Assembly (NCBI RefSeq): GCF_005887635.2 | Contig: NZ_CP040818.1 | Coordinates: 1,456,501-1,520,500 of the forward strand | DNA: 64,000 bases | Direction: 5' to 3' | Source: Paroceanicella profunda | Lineage (GTDB): Bacteria; Pseudomonadota; Alphaproteobacteria; Rhodobacterales; Rhodobacteraceae | Part shown: one piece after another, positions 47,182-60,383 of the stretch | How the letters are laid out: the number at the start of each line of letters is the position of its first letter | How positions within the stretch are numbered: the first letter of the stretch is position 1 | Made by a program: the position numbers and the translations under genes | The notes under the pieces: model-generated | The model's database searches: none | What the model was told of the DNA's origin: nothing | What the model saw: only the letters and a program-made list of their open reading frames with translations

Positions 47182-47598
47182 TCACACGTTGTGCGGCTGC
47201 AGGAACAACGACTGGGAAAGAGAGTCATAGAAACTCTCGAAGGCCAACGGGTCCGATATCTCCGTTTGGTTCGTCTGACCGGAGGCGCGCACGATAGTGA
47301 CGTTAGAGGCCTCTCTCACCGAGACGGTAAGGCGCGACAGGTCCCTACCATAGCGTGTCGCAGAAACTGTGCCCAGGACCGGGTCGACGCGATCAATGAC
47401 GTATTCGAGGTCCTGAAGTGTGGACACAACGGCCTGAAGAACGGCAGCGCGGTCAGTCGTCTCATACTCGCGAGTCGAGATGACGCGCTGCGCTGCCTGA
47501 CTGCGTGTCGACTGCAGGACCTGCTGCGTGCTGTTCATCTGGCAACCGGTGATCAGGAGTGCAGCACCGGCAAGAAACAGGGCATTGAAAGTGTTCAC
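47182..47598 (-). CDS. Lipoprotein 5 of the five-gene operon (shared LQDL domain)
   Basis: 138 residues. The signal ends at lipobox LITGC (Cys19). The mature part has the shared domain: YETTDRAAVLQAVVSTLQDL, then GTVSATRYG and a C-terminal FYDSLSQSLFLQP. The GTG at 47598 is preferred because AGGAG lies 7 bases upstream; a TTG at 47613 lacks one. Last gene of the operon. No known function. Confidence 0.78.
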   Translation of the reverse strand: MNTFNALFLAGAALLITGCQMNSTQQVLQSTRSQAAQRVISTREYETTDRAAVLQAVVSTLQDLEYVIDRVDPVLGTVSATRYGRDLSRLTVSVREASNVTIVRASGQTNQTEISDPLAFESFYDSLSQSLFLQPHNV

Positions 47599-47609
47599 AA
47601 TCGGTCTCC

Positions 47610-48065
47610 TCAAATCGAATGGGCGGTCAGAAAGGCAGACTGAGCAACACGCTCGAAAAATTGCTGGTACAGGGCCGGGTCCGTCAGGGTTTGCCCCGTC
47701 GACAGCATGGCGCCGGGACGGTTCACGACCCGCTGGAAGATCGCTCGCACGATCGTTCCACTGGCCTCGGGAAGGGCGCGTACGGACACCTGAACCCGCA
47801 GTTGCGCTCCCGCACGTTTCGAACCCACGATTACGCCGGTCTGGGTGCTGCTTTCATCGATGCCGAAGCCGAGATCCTGCAGGGCACCCAAGGCCGACTG
47901 CATCATCAGCTCCCGGTCATCAGTCTCAAACCGGCGCGACTGCTGCGATCGGGCAGAAACCGCGCTTGAGCTCGGGCTCAGTGATGCCAGTTGTTGCTCG
48001 GGCGTTGCGGCGCAACCGGCCATCAATGCTGCGAGACCGCACAGAAGGGAACGGCGCCCCAGCAT
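47610..48065 (-). CDS. Lipoprotein 4 of the operon (shared LQDLGF domain)
   Basis: 151 residues. Twin-basic-free signal MLGRRSLLCGLAALMAGC with lipobox Cys18, a short Ser/Ala linker, and the clearest copy of the shared domain: FETDDRELMMQSALGALQDL GF, TGVIVGSKRAG, TIVRAIFQRVVN and YQQFFERVAQSAFL. Start shares a base with the upstream stop (TGATG). Probably outer-membrane anchored, facing the periplasm or surface. Confidence 0.8.
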   Translation of the reverse strand: MLGRRSLLCGLAALMAGCAATPEQQLASLSPSSSAVSARSQQSRRFETDDRELMMQSALGALQDLGFGIDESSTQTGVIVGSKRAGAQLRVQVSVRALPEASGTIVRAIFQRVVNRPGAMLSTGQTLTDPALYQQFFERVAQSAFLTAHSI

Positions 48066-48481
48066 CAGAACGACGATTGGCGATAGCTGAAGTCGCTTAC
48101 CCTGCCGGTTGCGTCGTACTTGATGATCACGGTCAGAGTGCGCTGGGTCGTCGCCGACGCCGCAGCATTTGCTCCGACTCCCGCCAGAAACAGGGCGTTC
48201 ACGCCTCCCGAAGAACCGGAGTAGGCATTCTGCGTGGAGATCTTGTCGTAGATCCAGGTCTCGCCGCCGCCGGAATTGCTGGTGACGACGTTCGGCGAGC
48301 CAAGAACGGACGCAACGTCCGAACCCGTCATGCCGACGTGAATTTCACGCTGCACAACCCCGACGGTGAGCTTGTCGTCGGCGCTGTTCGCGGCGGCCAC
48401 ATCGCGGGCATGTTCACTCGCGGGCGTGCATGCGGCCAGGGCGGCGGTAGCGGTGATGCAGAGAAGGGCGAACCGGTACAT
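48065..48481 (-). CDS. Lipoprotein 3 of the operon, BamE/SmpA-OmlA-like
   Basis: 138 residues. Lipobox LAAC (Cys18) after MYRFALLCITATAA. The mature part has the SmpA/OmlA pattern, VQREIHVGMTGSDVASVLGS PNVV followed by GGGETWIYDK and a final strand LTVIIKYDATGRVSDFSYR, although a Gly/Ala-rich hydrophobic insert (NALFLAGVGANAAASATT) splits it. BamE-like folds bind outer-membrane assembly or transport partners. The ATG at 48481 has GGAG 5 bases upstream. Confidence 0.78.
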   Translation of the reverse strand: MYRFALLCITATAALAACTPASEHARDVAAANSADDKLTVGVVQREIHVGMTGSDVASVLGSPNVVTSNSGGGETWIYDKISTQNAYSGSSGGVNALFLAGVGANAAASATTQRTLTVIIKYDATGRVSDFSYRQSSF

Positions 48482-48483
48482 AG

Positions 48484-48996
48484 TCACTCCGTGGTGTTCA
48501 ATTTGGCCTGCGCTTCGCGCTCGGCCAATGTGTTGAGCTCGGCTACCGGTCTTGCGGCGTCGGGCGCTTCATCGGTCTGCGACAGGGTGGTCAGTGACCG
48601 CCCCATCGTGTCGCCGAGCGGGACGAAGAAGTCCCTCTGATAGAACTCCGGACTGTCGACCTGAGCTTCCTGGATCTGGGAAATGACGGATGCGTTTGCG
48701 CGCACCGCGCTCTCCTCGGCACCCCGGCTCTGCACGACAACGGCGAGACGAAGCGAGGATGAGCGCGTTCCGCTGATCACACCTGCCTCCGGTGCAACGC
48801 GCGTTATGCGGTAGCCCAGATCATGCATGGTCTCGATAACCGAGCGCATCGTGCTGTCGAAATCACCTGGCACGACGCGCGTCTGGATGGTGCGCAGCTC
48901 CACCGCGCTCTTCTTGCTCGGAACATACTGCAGGGCAGGCTGGGCGCACGCGGCTACGGCCAGAACCGCGACAATTCCATAAGCTCGCCAATGCAT
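48484..48996 (-). CDS. Lipoprotein 2 of the operon (diverged shared domain)
   Basis: 170 residues. Signal with lipobox VAAC (Cys17). Shared domain present but diverged: VVPGDFDSTMRSVIETMHDL GY, then AGVISGTRSS and FYQRDFFVPLGDTMGRSL. It has an extra ~35-residue polar tail (QTDEAPDAARPVAELNTLAE). Start shares a base with the upstream stop (TGATG); GGAG lies 7 bases before the ATG. Confidence 0.78.
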   Translation of the reverse strand: MHWRAYGIVAVLAVAACAQPALQYVPSKKSAVELRTIQTRVVPGDFDSTMRSVIETMHDLGYRITRVAPEAGVISGTRSSSLRLAVVVQSRGAEESAVRANASVISQIQEAQVDSPEFYQRDFFVPLGDTMGRSLTTLSQTDEAPDAARPVAELNTLAEREAQAKLNTTE

Positions 48997-49598
48997 CACT
49001 GTTCTCCCGTTGCCAGTCCGGCGCGGACCCTGTCGAAAAAGCCCGTCGAAAATTCCGGTGCAGTCAGATCTTCGGCCCGGGAAAGGCCGTTGTTGCGTGT
49101 CACGATCCGCTCAAAGGAAACGCGGAGCTGCATGTCGGAATCGCTTACGGGTCTGGATGTCACCGTCGCTCGAATCACCTGATCCTGATCCCAGGTGGCG
49201 TTGTAGGACGCTCCCAGCAACGCGAACGCCACGGCCAGCGCTATCTGTCCGGCCACCTCTCCGGTCTCGACCGCATCACGATCTTTGGAGCCGGCGAGCA
49301 CGCCGTAGGTCGCCACGCTCTCCTCAATCGTAAAGCCGAGATCCTGCAGAACCTGCGTGGTTTCAATGAGAAGCTGCCGCTCCGTCACATCGTGAAAGAC
49401 GGCCGTCTGGCGGTCGCGGATGGCAGCCGCGTCGGCTCTGGGAGCACCTACCAACAGAGCGGTTTTGTTTGCCCAATCGGGATCGGTACATCCGGACAGC
49501 GAAAGGGCTAATACAGCAATTGCAGCCGCGGGGACTGCCCTCTGGCGGGGCGCAATCGAGAGCGGCCTCACTGAGGCGAGCAAGGGGAAAAGGCGCAA
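48996..49598 (-). CDS. Lipoprotein 1 of the operon (shared domain with hydrophobic insert)
   Basis: About 200 residues; first gene. Lipobox LSLSGC after a long basic signal region. Shared domain: FHDVTERQLLIETTQVLQDL GF, then YGVLAGSKDRDA, then an extra hydrophobic stretch (AGQIALAVAFALLGASY) not seen in its paralogues, then VIRATV...RVSFERIVTRN and FSTGFFDRVRAGL. The TTG start at 49598 has TAGAGG 8 bases upstream; an in-frame GTG at 49571 gives a more normal signal peptide but no site. The start is therefore uncertain. Confidence 0.75.
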   Translation of the reverse strand: MRLFPLLASVRPLSIAPRQRAVPAAAIAVLALSLSGCTDPDWANKTALLVGAPRADAAAIRDRQTAVFHDVTERQLLIETTQVLQDLGFTIEESVATYGVLAGSKDRDAVETGEVAGQIALAVAFALLGASYNATWDQDQVIRATVTSRPVSDSDMQLRVSFERIVTRNNGLSRAEDLTAPEFSTGFFDRVRAGLATGEQ

Positions 49599-49632
49599 AT
49601 CACAAACCTCTAAACAAAGTGTTACCAAATAC

Positions 49633-49661
49633 CCTATCGAGCGAAAATAAGTTTCTGTCAA
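49633..49661 (-). promoter_or_regulatory. Sigma-70-like promoter of the lipoprotein operon
   Basis: On the minus strand a perfect -35 TTGACA (49661-49656) is followed after 17 bases by GATAGG (49638-49633). It lies 35 bases before the TTG start of the first lipoprotein gene, in an AT-rich patch. An operon-specific promoter would let the lipoproteins be made in the lysogen while the late genes are silent. Confidence 0.65.
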
Positions 49662-49791
49662 CCAGATCGCTGATTTGCCGGACAGATTCCGAAGGGTCGC
49701 AAGTAGAGGCACGAGGGTTCGGCGATGCCGAACAATTCTGAGGCACGCCATGTATTCAGCGGTGCTGATCGGGCTGGTGGTTTGGCGCCGC

Positions 49792-53960: not shown

Positions 53961-54178
53961 GGATCGGCTACCCCTCCGGCCGGGTTGCCGAACTCATCCA
54001 TGACGGCATGATGCACGCCCATAGCGGCCGCGCCGACAGGGCCGAGGCCACCTTCGAGGCGGCGGATCATCTCGCGCTCGAGGCGGAGCATCGGCTGACC
54101 ACCGAACTGCGCACCCTGTCCCGCCTGCGGGAGGAGATCGCCCGGCATCGCAGCGGCCTGCGGGAGGGGGCACGATGA
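53957..54178 (+). CDS. Small helical protein, unknown
   Basis: 73 residues, largely helical and charged (EAADHLALEAEHRLTTELRT LSRLREEIARH), probably a coiled coil. ATGA overlaps at both ends. Confidence 0.6.
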   Translation: MRIGYPSGRVAELIHDGMMHAHSGRADRAEATFEAADHLALEAEHRLTTELRTLSRLREEIARHRSGLREGAR

Positions 54179-55460: not shown

Positions 55461-56057
55461 TCAGCCGGCGCGCGGTTCGATGATGAATGCTCGATACAAA
55501 GCCCAAGCTGATTCGTCTTCTCCCAACGCAATCTGCTCCAGAATATTCAAAAAAACCGTAGAGCCTGGCGTCACTTCTTCCAATTCGATATCCACATTAT
55601 CGGAATCATAAATATTAGACACATAAACATTAAAAATCCACCAACGGTCTATCTTCGTGACCAATGCGACCAATACTGGAAATAGCGTGCCGAAATTTGG
55701 AAGAAATTCACCCGAAATTATCTTTCTGTTTTCGTGAGCGAACGAATTTCGCGCTTCGGTGATTTCATAAAATTTCATGACGTCCCCTGCGTCAATAACT
55801 CCCATTCGCTCAAGCCACTGAATTGAGCCTCGAAGAATATCCTCTTTGCCCTTTGGGTCCAGGGCGAGGACCTCCCTACGGTACTCTTCGTTGAATTGCG
55901 AACCCCCTGATGCACTCCACTTTTCTGAGAAGAAACCCAATATGGGCTCCTTGATTGAGGCCACAAGCACTTCGTACGCAAGCAAGTAGAGCCCTGAGGT
56001 TGTAAGGCGCCTGCGGACTACATCCGGATTGAGAAAGTCTTCCCACTGCTTATGCAT
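55461..56057 (-). CDS. Putative HEPN-domain protein in the GC-poor island
   Basis: 198 residues, all-helical. FYEITEARNSFAHENRKIIS contains R103-N-S-F-A-H108, the Rx4H active-site pattern of HEPN ribonucleases. The flanking helices have the right spacing. HEPN proteins often act as defence or toxin RNases. GC content and codon choice differ strongly from the phage core. The start at 56057 (MHKQWEDF) has only a distant AAAGG. DUF4145-like non-catalytic HEPN is an alternative. Confidence 0.6.
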   Translation of the reverse strand: MHKQWEDFLNPDVVRRRLTTSGLYLLAYEVLVASIKEPILGFFSEKWSASGGSQFNEEYRREVLALDPKGKEDILRGSIQWLERMGVIDAGDVMKFYEITEARNSFAHENRKIISGEFLPNFGTLFPVLVALVTKIDRWWIFNVYVSNIYDSDNVDIELEEVTPGSTVFLNILEQIALGEDESAWALYRAFIIEPRAG

Positions 56058-56598
56058 CGGTCTTGGATAGCCTTTATCACTAGCTGCGTCCACCGCACAG
56101 CGGGGCCACCACTGTTGTGGGGTATCCACAGTTATGCGAGATGGAAAGCCGCGAGCTCTCTGCGCTGAGTATTTTCCACAAGATTCGGAGTGGGGTTCAT
56201 TCACAAGTGGCGCACCCCTCGCTCCATCCGTCCTCGGTGGCGGCAGAGTTCCACAGCCTCTATGGCGGGATACAGCCCCAAATATCTGGATGTGATTGGC
56301 GCGCCAGGGGGTATAAGCTGGCTATGAAGGGTCGAAAGCCTACCGATGGTAACGCAATGTGGCGGTCGCAGCAATTCCAGCGAGGCAGGCGCTCATGCTA
56401 CGTCGTAGCCGGAACATCGCCCTGCGCCCCCAACAGACGGAGAGCAGTCGTTCGCCGCGCACGTTGTGAACAATAGTAAGCACAAAGAGGCGGCGCCAAA
56501 ATGCTTGCTGCTCTAGCGACTGCGAGGTGCAGATAGGGTTTTTTTGTGTATGGGCGTCAATTTTAGAAAATCAGGAAATTGCCATACGGCGCATTCGC
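56058..56598. other. Non-coding gap in the GC-poor island
   Basis: About 540 bases without a supported gene. A plus-strand frame near 56323 begins MKGRKP, like a P27 small-terminase N-terminus, but diverges at once, so it is at most a remnant. No terminator was identified. Confidence 0.45.
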
Positions 56599-58803
56599 TT
56601 ATACCCTTGAAACAACATTCCAAAGTTCGTCGTCACAGTTTCGCAACAATGATCGAATTCTTCCCATCCGGCGTGTGAACTTCCTGTTGGGGATATAGAG
56701 CTTCCCATGATCTCCGGGAGCTTCAGTTATTATGTCATTGGTGAGCATATATCGAACTGCTTCGGTCGCCGCCGCACGGTCCCAATAGCTCGACGCACCG
56801 CGAAGAAGTGCTTCTTCTTTCCGACCGCTGCCCGGTTGAAAAAATAGTTTTCGAATGATGGCCACAAGTGTCTTATGACCATTCGAAAGTGGGAGTTCGC
56901 TAATTCTCGCAACGTTGTCCGCACTGGAAAAACCATCAAAATCGCAATCATCGGAAAATGCCGACGGCAATCGAACTTTATCTGACACACCTATAATTTG
57001 CTGAAACGCGCAGTTAGAAAAATTAGAATCTATAAAAAATGCTCCGTCCAAGTGCAGAACTTCAAAAAAAGTACCAGACACATGCAGGCCGGATATCTTA
57101 AGATCTGAAAGCTCGAGTCTGTCTATTGAGGCGTTTCTGATTGTGACCTGAGAGAAATCTATGGATCCGGATGCAGCCTCAATAGCCGAGCACAAATAGT
57201 CAGCCGCAATTTGCATGTTTCCTCTTGAGTTGCACAGTCTGCAATACTTCTCTGCCTCAGACCCGATTAGAGCATGAGCAAATAAAAACTTCGCGCCAAA
57301 TGGGCCGACTGGCTTCCTGTAGAGATCCTCGGCTACGGCCTTGTCAGAAGTTCTGAATGCTTCGACCAAAGCCACCCCTCTCAGTCCACTTTTGGCGTAG
57401 TCATCTACAAAGCGGCGATTTCCGCTACCAGAACTAACACGCCCTAAATAGGGAAGTCGTTGTAGAATACTCGACGCTTCGTCAAGCGGCATGAAGCCAG
57501 ATACCTGATGAAAGGCTTCATTGATCTCCAATGGCGATATTTCTTCGTTGAATTCATTCTTTCGGCGGCTGGCTTTCGCGATTTCAAGCAAAACCTTCCG
57601 CAAAACTTCAGCATCTATACTGGGATGAATTCTTGTTTCGCGCTCACAAATCGCTTGAAATGTGTTTTCAAAGAACTGGACTTCACCAGTCGAGTCCTCT
57701 ATGAGCTTGCGCATGGTTTCCGGTTCAAGCTTCGAAAAGAGTTGGCAAATTAGCGGCTTTCTGGGGCTCCATTCCGGAAACTCCGTTAGCCCGGTGTTCA
57801 GTCTTAAGTAATCAATGGCTTGATCTTCAGTGAACTCATCAGGGCAATTTAGCAGTATTGTATCAATGTCCAGCCCGAGACAACTGAGCATCTCCTCGTC
57901 GTCGCTGAAGTAATGTGCACGTCCACACAGAAGCACACCCTTTCCGTCAAGCTTTGAAACAATGTCTCTTACACCCTGAAGGCTGCGGCGTCGGATTTCT
58001 CTAAGTCTTTCAGGTTCGCCGCTCCACGATTGTGATCCGATCTCGTCAATTCCGTCTAGGATGAAAGCAAGCGCACCAGACCTTACAAGCCGCACCGCGG
58101 AGTCTTCCAGGCCGCTAAGTCCCAGAGAAGACAAATGGCTTCGTACAATTAAGTCGAAGGACTGATGGCCCCAATGCTCTCGGAGGTTTATCGCGAGAGT
58201 TGGAAAGAGAATATTCCTGCGACTGACCCTCTCGAAGACTTCCCTGGCACAGCGGGACTTCCCTGTGCCAAACTCCCCTAGCAGTATTATCCTTCTTCCA
58301 TTTGAGAGAAGATCGGATATTTCATCAACGTTGTAAGTAGTTCCCGAAGATTTATCGAGGTATCCTGTCTCAATGAAGGCGCCAGTGTCGCTCTTATTTG
58401 TATATGGATCTAGGGCGCTCCCGAACTCGACCGATTTTCGCGCAAATTCATATGACTCTTTTCCAACAAATTTCTCCCTAAATTCCTTGACGCTTAATAC
58501 CTCAACCTTTTGCGCCTTGCCGGTCTCGCGGAGAGATGAAACTTTGCGCGCCGATATAAAGAATGATCGCACAACAACGCCTTCGGGTACGAGTGCAGTT
58601 CGTATGCTCGCAAACTTCGCCAAGTCTAGTCTTAATTTTGCGAGGTTGTCTTCTTTTGTTATTTCTATGACTACTATTTCATCCGATGACACCCTAATCA
58701 CCGCATCGCATCGGATACCGGCAATTTCCTCTGCCTTGGCAGGGGCATTCCAATGGGACGAGGCAATCTGCCGGACGCTTTCTTCGAAATCTTGCCAATT
58801 CAT
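56599..58803 (-). CDS. Nuclease-NACHT STAND NTPase (bacterial NLR-like defence protein)
   Basis: 734 residues. N-terminal ~110: restriction-endonuclease-like fold, with E8, D33 and E47-I-T-K50 in CDAVIRVSSDEIVVIEITKE. The canonical Lys is shifted by one, so activity is uncertain. NACHT module: Walker A GEFGTGKS (176-183), Walker B FILDGIDE (247-254), then winged-helix-like helices. C-terminal ~190: pentapeptide-like repeats (IDFSQVTIRNASIDRLELSD). Proteins of this architecture (Avs/bNACHT) sense phage proteins and kill the infected cell. Much lower GC than the phage. ATG at 58803 or GTG at 58806 with AAGGA. Confidence 0.8.
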   Translation of the reverse strand: MNWQDFEESVRQIASSHWNAPAKAEEIAGIRCDAVIRVSSDEIVVIEITKEDNLAKLRLDLAKFASIRTALVPEGVVVRSFFISARKVSSLRETGKAQKVEVLSVKEFREKFVGKESYEFARKSVEFGSALDPYTNKSDTGAFIETGYLDKSSGTTYNVDEISDLLSNGRRIILLGEFGTGKSRCAREVFERVSRRNILFPTLAINLREHWGHQSFDLIVRSHLSSLGLSGLEDSAVRLVRSGALAFILDGIDEIGSQSWSGEPERLREIRRRSLQGVRDIVSKLDGKGVLLCGRAHYFSDDEEMLSCLGLDIDTILLNCPDEFTEDQAIDYLRLNTGLTEFPEWSPRKPLICQLFSKLEPETMRKLIEDSTGEVQFFENTFQAICERETRIHPSIDAEVLRKVLLEIAKASRRKNEFNEEISPLEINEAFHQVSGFMPLDEASSILQRLPYLGRVSSGSGNRRFVDDYAKSGLRGVALVEAFRTSDKAVAEDLYRKPVGPFGAKFLFAHALIGSEAEKYCRLCNSRGNMQIAADYLCSAIEAASGSIDFSQVTIRNASIDRLELSDLKISGLHVSGTFFEVLHLDGAFFIDSNFSNCAFQQIIGVSDKVRLPSAFSDDCDFDGFSSADNVARISELPLSNGHKTLVAIIRKLFFQPGSGRKEEALLRGASSYWDRAAATEAVRYMLTNDIITEAPGDHGKLYIPNRKFTRRMGRIRSLLRNCDDELWNVVSRV

Positions 58804-59205
58804 CACTTTTCGTCCTTGCGCCCGCTTAAGAAGGAACGTTCTTTCAAATTTAGCTAGGGATCAAGAAGGAAGTCGCTCCACGAACCGCATCGAAGTAGTC
58901 TCACAGTGGGCGGGCCCTCCCGCCGGATCGGTCGAACACTGTGGGTTATTCGGCTTAGGTCGGCGCTGCCTATCCAGCCAGTGCATCGTGGCACTGGGGC
59001 CATGGCAGTGTCGGCGACCAACCGTTCACGAAGGTCGACTTCGGGTAGAGCCCAGACTTTGCCGCACTTCGCATGAACGGCCGCTATGGCTCGGGAAGGC
59101 CTGACGGTTAGAGCGGGGCGGGCCCGCCTAATACGTCCGCTTTCTGCGCTTCGCCGACGCCCATGTATGACGTCGCGAACGGCAGAAAATCGCCGCTTCA
59201 GATCC
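58804..59205. other. Intergenic between NACHT and integrase
   Basis: About 400 bases; the promoter of the NACHT gene should lie at the left end (AT-rich near 58830-58865, with a near-palindrome around GAACGTTC at 58837-58844). No gene or repeat was recognised in the rest. Confidence 0.45.
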
Positions 59206-60171
59206 CTAGCCCAGCCGCTTCGCGAGATCCTCGGCGCTCTCGTTGTAGTACACCTGCAACATCTTGAGGTCGCGATGCCCGACCATCCGGGCGAGCGCCA
59301 GAACGTCCAGCTTCGCCGCCAGCCGCGTGATTGCCGCGTGGCGGCTGTCGTGGAAGGTGAGGCCCTCTACTCCGGCACGGCTCCGCAGCTTGCGCCACAG
59401 CGCGTCCAGGCTGCGGGGTGTCAGGCCGAAGACCGGGTCTGCCTTCGGCAGGGCTTCGAGCAGCCGTGCGGCTTCGGATGACAGGGGCACCTGGCGCGAG
59501 CGGCCGTTCTTGGTGATCTCCAGATGCACGGTGCGGCGGGTGAGGTCCACCCGGTCCCAGGTCAGCCCGCAGATCTCCCCGGCCCGCATCGCCGTTTCCA
59601 GCGCGAACAGCCAGGCATGATAGGCGCGGGCCGTGGCGTGCTGCAGGTCGTCTCCAGCGGAGAGCGCAAGCCGCTCCATTTCGGCGGCGGTTGGCAGGCG
59701 GTCCCTTGCCGGTGGGGCCGCGGGGCGCCGTACGTCCGTCAGGGGGTTGGTGCTGAGCAGCCCCCATTCCTTGATGGCCACGTTGATGGCGGAGGACATG
59801 GTCTGCATCTCGCGGATGACCGATGCCGGGCCCACGTCCTTCAGGCGCCGGTCGCGCCAGGCGGCGAAATCCGCCGGGCGGAGATCGGCCACCTTCAGCC
59901 AGGCAATGTCGTCCCGCCGCATGCGGTTGATCCGGAGGATTTCCACGCGGGCCCCGCGCTTGGAGACGGTCACCTCGCGCGCGTAGCGGTCGAGCAGGTC
60001 GCCGAACGGGGCCTGTGAGGCGATACCTTCGGAGTTGAGGATCAGATATTCCTGCCGGGCGGCCCAGTCCTTCGCCGCCTGGCGACTCGCGAAGACCTGA
60101 GATTTCCGCACACCCTTCCGGGCAACCTGAGCCCGGAACCGGTTTGCGCTGAGTTTCGCGATGCTGGCCAT
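59206..60171 (-). CDS. int: Tyrosine integrase
   Basis: 321 residues. N-terminal arm-type region and SAM-like domain, then a catalytic domain with all residues visible: Arg in AMRAGEICGLTWDRV, Lys in LEITKNGRSRQVPL, HxxR in TFHDSRHAAITRL, His in ARMVGHRDLKMLQVYY with the Tyr nucleophile at the end. The start at 60171 (MASIAKLSANRF) follows GTGGGGA. It lies 138 bases from the tRNA-Thr 3' end that serves as its target. Confidence 0.93.
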   Translation of the reverse strand: MASIAKLSANRFRAQVARKGVRKSQVFASRQAAKDWAARQEYLILNSEGIASQAPFGDLLDRYAREVTVSKRGARVEILRINRMRRDDIAWLKVADLRPADFAAWRDRRLKDVGPASVIREMQTMSSAINVAIKEWGLLSTNPLTDVRRPAAPPARDRLPTAAEMERLALSAGDDLQHATARAYHAWLFALETAMRAGEICGLTWDRVDLTRRTVHLEITKNGRSRQVPLSSEAARLLEALPKADPVFGLTPRSLDALWRKLRSRAGVEGLTFHDSRHAAITRLAAKLDVLALARMVGHRDLKMLQVYYNESAEDLAKRLG

Positions 60172-60304: not shown

Positions 60305-60329
60305 GGGCTGGTGCCGGATGAGGGATTCG
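60305..60329. other. Putative attR at the tRNA-Thr 3' end
   Basis: GGGCTGGTGCCGGATGAG (60305-60322), including the encoded CCA and acceptor stem, is repeated at 22167-22184 with one mismatch. The intact tRNA is kept at this end. Confidence 0.7.
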
Positions 60330-60383
60330 AACCCCCGACCTTCGGTTTACAAAACCGCTGCACTACCACTGTGCTAATCCGGC
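60309..60383 (-). tRNA. tRNA-Thr (anticodon TGT)
   Basis: 75 bases with encoded CCA. Acceptor stem GCCGGAT/ATCCGGC, D-loop TAGCACAGTGGTAGTGCA, anticodon stem-loop GGTTTTGTAAACC with TGT, and T-arm GGGGGTTCGAATCCC. All four stems pair well. The 3' end is the prophage attachment site. Confidence 0.96.

Follow-up and report, generated by a model that had tools for sequence, protein, structure and literature searches.

A recurrent cassette of BamE-like and paralogous lipoprotein genes in a prophage of Paroceanicella profunda, possibly encoding an accessory outer-membrane complex

A prophage of Paroceanicella profunda carries five successive minus-strand genes (A to E, positions 49598-47182), each with a lipoprotein signal. 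We analyzed them in a window of 64,000 nucleotides (NZ_CP040818.1, positions 1,456,501 to 1,520,500; assembly GCF_005887635.2), and coordinates below count from the first letter of that window. Four of the proteins share one domain, and the fifth, C, resembles BamE. We tentatively favor the reading that the cassette encodes an accessory, horizontally moving hetero-oligomeric complex of outer-membrane lipoproteins, which probably aids outer-membrane or beta-barrel assembly. Co-inheritance, the domain tree, lipoboxes, hydrophobic inserts, BamE likeness, purifying selection, low guanine plus cytosine (GC) content and barrel-type neighbors all appear consistent with it.

A tightly spaced and co-inherited gene set

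The open reading frame (ORF) positions agree with the five-gene arrangement given in a first-pass annotation of this DNA. The genes and the stretch upstream of them are as follows.

Gene A, 48996..49598, minus strand: lipoprotein; shared domain of the long type, with a 35-residue hydrophobic insert; member of the A clade of the domain tree
Gene B, 48484..48996, minus strand: lipoprotein; shared domain of the short type
Gene C, 48065..48481, minus strand: BamE-like lipoprotein; predicted long beta-hairpin with a Gly-rich tip (borderline PF04355 match, PDB profile search, AlphaFold2 model)
Gene D, 47610..48065, minus strand: lipoprotein; shared domain of the long type, with 4 residues at the insert site of its relatives
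Gene E, 47182..47598, minus strand: lipoprotein; shared domain of the short type
Upstream intergenic stretch, 49599..49791, minus strand: GC 0.518; contains TTGACA at 49661-49656; promoter presumed

With the starts that we chose, the genes are spaced by -1 (A-B), +2 (B-C), -1 (C-D) and +11 (D-E) nucleotides (nt), matching the earlier description of overlaps or gaps of at most 11 bases. The TTG start of A at 49598 is one among several candidates, and the lipobox script took a start 9 codons further in. The predicted lipobox on each of the five proteins was confirmed by our screen, which 252 of 282 genes across the contigs fetched below also passed. In E. coli, Asp at the +2 position is an inner-membrane retention signal; the +2 residue was never Asp in 281 proteins passing the screen. 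The operon had further been assigned its own TTGACA promoter. The hexamer is present at 49661-49656, but a consensus promoter scan reported no promoter-like pair there.

We then asked how often these genes occur together. Scanning genome contigs with C gave 419 relatives; we fetched the best 80, and metagenome bins make up many of these. (In protein-level searches the C query was limited to 8000, and the domain query scored 8000 candidates.) At least one domain gene lies beside C in 79 of the 80 contigs; in the remaining one, C stands at the contig end. The order C-D-E was found in 44 contigs, the full A-B-C-D-E order in 24 and C-D in 7; another 5 contigs show other patterns, the lone C being one of these. 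Gaps between neighboring genes measured -12 to +25 nt in 182 of 202 cases, while 7 were shorter and 13 longer, some of these reflecting doubtful starts. The order varies in one contig, where C precedes four domain genes (L058:7956-10387), and in another gene A is seemingly short (117 amino acids, L043:3143-3493) with a 210-nt gap before B. Among the names in record titles are Acetobacteraceae, Azospirillum, Magnetospirillum, Gammaproteobacteria, Desulfobacterales, Omnitrophota, Nitrospira and Kapaibacterium. These data show that the genes co-occur well outside this prophage, and we rejected the idea of a prophage-only system, as the cassette was fetched from many genome contigs.

The cassette is nonetheless absent from most genomes sampled. 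It was found in 1 of 61 genomes of the window's own family (E ≤ 1e-25). At class level 11 of 289 genomes had a match (E ≤ 1e-20), four of which scored better than 1e-40, and at phylum level 6 of 299 did (E ≤ 1e-30). Within the window's genome, a D query recovered only the four copies of this operon, the fifth match having an E-value of 0.88.

A second copy allowed us to examine selection. A contig of Oceanicella sp. SM1341 (3606 bases) aligned over its entire length at 85%. The ratio of nonsynonymous to synonymous substitution (dN/dS) between the two copies was 0.17 for A, 0.09 for B, 0.02 for C, 0.06 for D and 0.12 for E, and 0.24 for the best-matching upstream ORF. A to E are therefore under purifying selection and look like functioning genes. 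Because these values are low and the five-gene order recurs in 24 of the 80 contigs (the Oceanicella copy included), the arrangement is more than chance.

The shared domain and the BamE-like protein

The first-pass annotation held that four members share one unrecognized domain, and our comparisons bear this out. In an eight-row alignment of the four domain proteins of the window and four plasmid relatives, C18, R39, D64, G77, R107, P130 and F136 (D numbering) are invariant, and the D-type and E-type profiles match each other at 99.9% probability. Searches of Pfam, NCBIfam and PHROGs with A, B, D and E gave no match of weight; the best had an E-value of 0.0034, far under that family's cut-off. 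Among the best 25 of 44 Pfam families matched by 78 domain relatives, the best E-value was 0.0037. PHROG matches of the window proteins were to function-unknown families, except one at E 0.1. Relationship to a solved structure was also rejected for the domain, since the best E-values of the profile searches were only 0.54 and 0.57.

A tree of 219 domain proteins, built with a quick method, separates a long type (A and D) from a short type (B and E), with support of 95 on both sides. Five rows labeled D fall on the short side: four form a divergent clade (L059, L068, L080 and L085) and the fifth, L084, has doubtful gene calls. All 24 A proteins lie on one side of a single branch, with a Shimodaira-Hasegawa-like approximate likelihood ratio test (SH-aLRT) value of 99. 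The B, D and E proteins of the five-gene form each cluster as well, joined only by the matching row of contig L011, which starts inside a five-gene operon. The core is C-D-E, and one duplication of the D-E pair would most simply account for the five-gene form. This is the simplest history rather than a demonstrated one, since A, the D proteins of five-gene operons and the remaining D proteins branch in no firmly supported order in the tree.

Long-type proteins commonly carry an insert. It spans 29-43 residues in 74 of 81 A and D rows, and the seven remaining rows, all D proteins of the five-gene form and the window's D among them, have 4 residues in its place. All 22 A rows aligned, from 25 five-gene operons, keep it; this alignment omits eight D and three A rows of such operons for length, doubtful start or redundancy. 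A 19-residue hydropathy peak above 1.2 was found in all 25 A proteins, 75% of 60 D proteins of set D3, 40% of 25 of set D5 and 47% of 92 C proteins, versus 4-8% of B and E. The inserts of C and of A and D are largely uncharged and rich in Gly and Ala, and B and E have no such inserts.

We considered whether C and the A and D inserts form a membrane-spanning ring, a hetero-oligomeric outer-membrane pore or channel with B and E as its non-inserting subunits. The composition of the inserts and their restriction to C, A and D would fit this, as would the retention of the insert by A while seven D rows lack it, and the C model places two strands (residues 74-90 and 106-122) in a long hairpin around the insert. 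Nevertheless, an insert of some 30 residues could supply no more than one short hairpin, the C hairpin is modeled with low confidence at its tip, the insert of the window's A has a charge, only about half of the C proteins pass the hydropathy limit, and no cargo gene recurs among the flank families listed below. We regard a pore as quite unlikely.

The fifth gene was said to look like BamE/SmpA, and our results agree. As a protein, C scored 24.2 bits (E 3e-5) against the Pfam BamE family PF04355, just over the cut-off of 23.2, and in the PDB a profile of C relatives picked out BamE chains (E about 2e-5). An AlphaFold2 model (mean predicted local distance difference test score 80.3) has helices at 36-46 and 53-60 and strands at 74-90, 106-122 and 127-137, so that C is predicted to have the two-helix part followed by three strands of the BamE superfamily. 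C thus shares with BamE/SmpA/OmlA a Pfam match, a profile match and the succession of helices and beta-sheet; it differs in its borderline score and in the extra Gly-rich stretch inside the hairpin. At E ≤ 1e-3, the operon profile did not recover the other BamE of the genome.

Whether the shared domain resembles BamC is less clear. When profiles of A/D, of E and of the whole domain set were aligned with BamC, the helix and the strands after it fell on the BamC helix-grip domains, each time in the same register. Four comparisons were set against 60 column shuffles each: in three the real score was higher than every shuffle, and in the remaining one it was higher than 59. A larger BamC set gave top scores of 26.7 (A/D), 26.2 (E) and 23.6 (all) versus best null scores of 24.2, 20.6 and 21.7, from a small null of 32 pieces, 23 of them reversed profiles. 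PF06804 (BamC) was not matched by the five window proteins in Pfam at E ≤ 1, appeared nowhere among the 25 of 44 families listed for the 78 relatives and had no match in the window's genome. We therefore rejected BamC membership for A, B, D and E, and a BamC-like helix-grip fold is only a suggestive lead. The likeness to BamC/NlpB would lie in the helix and strands; BamC has two domains and an N-terminal lasso, whereas the proteins here have one domain, with a hydrophobic insert in A and D. Passages of a 2012 survey (PMC3359395) report no BamC in alpha-, delta- or epsilonproteobacteria; for the alpha group they name BamF as an alternative lipoprotein.

Neighbors, mobile carriers and the prophage

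To learn what accompanies the cassette, we scanned 98 of the 158 nearest flank proteins, hand-picked for a gap below about 400 nt and moderate length and including some viral-contig flanks. Flank gene positions are approximate, as the gene caller overlooked the cassette itself in many contigs, and the family tables hold the best 25 of 107 Pfam families and the best 25 of 38 families, without assigning a family to a particular protein. The families listed are mixed: integrase matches occur in two proteins, a head-protein match in one or so, OMP_b-brl matches in 3 of 98 and ankyrin repeats in 4 of 98. In L059, L068 and L080, all of the C-D form, a gene lies 32, 4 and 17 nt upstream and another 6, 6 and 11 nt downstream. 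The upstream genes of L059 and L068 are beta-barrel matches (26.2 bits in L059, under the cut-off of 28.7, and 29.2 in L068) and belong to the three OMP_b-brl proteins. The downstream gene of L059 encodes an ankyrin protein, with which its counterparts in L068 and L080 share 73 and 58% identity. Neighbors read singly include a transport receptor, a metallo-beta-lactamase/rhodanese, an alcohol dehydrogenase, two creatininases, a DNA glycosylase, TauE and a CoA-enzyme activase. The singly read genes give no function, and a recurring neighbor that would name one was rejected.

The flanks bear on a role in immunity, in which the cassette would protect its own cell against a periplasmic, envelope-targeting toxin in the manner of the BamE-like immunity proteins of Lipocone toxins. 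Such proteins exist, according to passages of PMC12419801, and like the cassette they are mobile, membrane-anchored and BamE-like; the patchy distribution of the cassette would also suit this role. However, the Pfam families listed for the 98 flank proteins (25 of 107) include no toxin family, though a RelE/ParE gene does lie near the cassette on an Acinetobacter plasmid. The same passages describe the Lipocone proteins as rapidly evolving, which C is not, and C is accompanied by a paralogous pair. Immunity therefore seems improbable.

Plasmids and viral contigs also carry these genes. Plasmid-collection records with a C relative comprise one from Acinetobacter (8 kb), two from Azospirillum and three from Vibrio. 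The Azospirillum and Vibrio records are replicons of 0.6-1.8 Mb, and the Vibrio replicon inspected has C and one domain gene. On the Acinetobacter plasmid (CP061710.1, 7989 bases), C-D-E takes up about a sixth of the length (L002:4892-6277) and adjoins a SulP transporter gene and the RelE/ParE-family gene. Ten viral contigs match; nine have C by profile, and five of these have C-D-E. A second viral scan yielded no contigs beyond those already found. Viral contig L088 is Mu-like, with transposase, terminase and portal genes. In a pooled scan, flank proteins of L089-L091 gave strong matches to a phage reverse transcriptase and to many tail-fiber families, as in diversity-generating retroelement regions. 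The family tables for L088 and for the L089-L091 set hold the best 25 families. Searched with tblastn against 50,697 phage records, D (E ≤ 1e-2) and C (E ≤ 1e-4) had no match.

Such carriers are what superinfection exclusion or receptor masking would lead one to expect. By analogy with T5 Llp or TraT, the lysogen would produce lipoproteins that keep rival phages or plasmids from adsorbing or from delivering their DNA, and mobile elements would spread the cassette for that purpose. The first-pass annotation took this to be the likeliest role. The presence of the cassette in a prophage, the Mu-like contig, the L089-L091 set and the 8-kb plasmid speaks for this, as does its patchy distribution, and TraT too is a chromosomal lipoprotein family that plasmids have taken up several times, according to passages of PMC11733297. 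Those passages also describe TraT as an outer-membrane lipoprotein with membrane-inserting parts, as is proposed for the cassette; TraT is one homodecamer, whereas the cassette has several different subunits. A defence scan of the five proteins with PADLOC gave 0 families at E ≤ 1, so that a known defence family was rejected for these proteins, and TraT membership was rejected likewise, none of the five having a TraT match in Pfam at E ≤ 1. The flank families listed include few of phage, the deposited phages had no match for D or C at the limits used, and the very slow change of C (dN/dS 0.02) does not suggest an arms race. The cassette is not tied to prophages, and exclusion as its likeliest role is not supported; we consider it unlikely. 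Patchy recurrence in unrelated bacteria, plasmids and phages suggests a mobile outer-membrane module rather than a phage-specific exclusion system.

The window's own copy does lie inside a prophage and outside the structural modules, as was first described. The landmarks are as follows.

CII-like regulator, 52301: early side of the cassette
Replication-like gene, 51281: early side
HNH, 46674: packaging side
TerS (small terminase), 46124: packaging side
TerL (large terminase), 44457: packaging side
Portal, 43153: packaging side
Protease, 41068: packaging side
Major head, 39663: packaging side
Tape measure, 33238: packaging side

A to E thus stand between the early genes and the HNH and packaging genes. 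The cassette has a GC content of 0.617 versus 0.71-0.74 for adjoining sequence. GC content at third codon positions (GC3) is 0.68-0.77 in A to E and 0.86-0.96 in 8 of 10 phage-region genes measured; the two exceptions lie further upstream, at 53994 (0.69) and 56599 (0.47). Given a GC content below that of the neighboring phage genes together with purifying selection, the cassette is probably acquired cargo. Elsewhere in the window, GC drops to 0.50-0.59 across 56001-60000, where a long ORF (56599-58806) has a GC3 of 0.47 and which a tRNA-Thr gene (60309-60383) adjoins; this part may be the end of the prophage or another foreign insert. The window ORFs scanned include no integrase, and a direct-repeat search for attachment (att) sites gave no convincing pair among the 20 of 27 repeat families listed.

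This position would also allow a late phage function, such as spanin-like lysis or virion release, because the operon lies just upstream of the packaging genes, and the Mu-like contig carries the cassette too. We find this highly improbable: many genome contigs have the cassette with listed flank families that are mostly non-phage, and the GC3 of A to E is sharply unlike that of most phage genes measured.

A possible accessory outer-membrane complex

We return to the accessory outer-membrane complex. The first-pass annotation had proposed a multi-subunit envelope complex, and the co-inheritance of tightly spaced paralogous lipoproteins with a BamE-like partner supports that proposal. At its core would be a BamE-like subunit, C, together with two paralogous single-domain lipoproteins, D and E; in this prophage the pair occurs a second time as A and B. 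Judging from the lipoboxes and +2 residues, all five proteins would be exported, lipidated and sent to the outer membrane. Co-inheritance and paralogy suggest that they assemble there as a hetero-oligomer at the inner leaflet, and the sequences of the hydrophobic inserts of C and of A and D suggest that these may pack into the membrane. Given the BamE-like and possibly BamC-like parts, the likeliest role would be to stabilize the outer membrane or to help in beta-barrel assembly. The prophage probably carries the cassette as lysogen cargo, judging from its base composition, its position and its rarity in the host family.

Several results weigh against this reading. In a six-frame genome search C scored 22.7 bits for PF04355, under the cut-off of 23.2, so that its membership is borderline overall, and the hairpin tip of its model is of low confidence (block means 52 and 63). 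A separate BamE elsewhere in the window's genome outscores C for PF04355, which suggests that C is not needed for the beta-barrel assembly machinery (BAM) itself. The BamC comparison is similarly weak in places: only 2 of 28 comparisons with single BamC domains exceed all 100 null pieces, the top null score of the A/D query (24.2) lies above all but the best BamC scores (26.7) with most A/D windows under the null, and the best windowed hhalign probability, 35.5%, is under significance. A, B, D and E each have one domain and a short stretch after the Cys, and the two domains and long N-terminal lasso of BamC are absent. The barrel neighbor is known from few contigs, where the domain gene belongs to the divergent clade. 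Finally, the complex, with its partners and phenotype, is a proposal from sequence.

The better-scoring BamE elsewhere and the lack of a PF06804 match in the window's genome indicate that the cassette would be an addition to the host's own set. Passages of PMC13067283 describe E. coli BamB, BamC and BamE as having a partly redundant role around the orienting of BamA-BamD, with BamC loss of little effect and BamE loss reducing outer-membrane protein assembly. One could picture, more specifically, a portable "satellite" assembly module in which a ring of BamE-like and single-domain BamC-like lipoproteins, with hydrophobic hairpins inserted into the outer membrane, would work beside BAM. Such a module would move between phyla, and phages and plasmids would have taken it up as a means of remodeling the host envelope. 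This picture is conceivable, if doubtful.

The individual proteins belong to a familiar class, BAM-type outer-membrane lipoproteins; neither their combination nor the main domain has a name in the libraries used. Among the papers listed by our search of literature on BamE-like proteins, prophage lipoproteins and exclusion, with most subscription journals outside it, none describes this gene set, in keeping with the initial impression that no named system has this composition. A lipoprotein set with no convincing entry for its main domain in Pfam, NCBIfam or PHROGs recurs in fixed order in contigs of several phyla. Strict co-inheritance and patchy spread mark a real envelope system. If the cassette helps BAM, then accessory parts for outer-membrane assembly travel on mobile elements, in Alphaproteobacteria as well.

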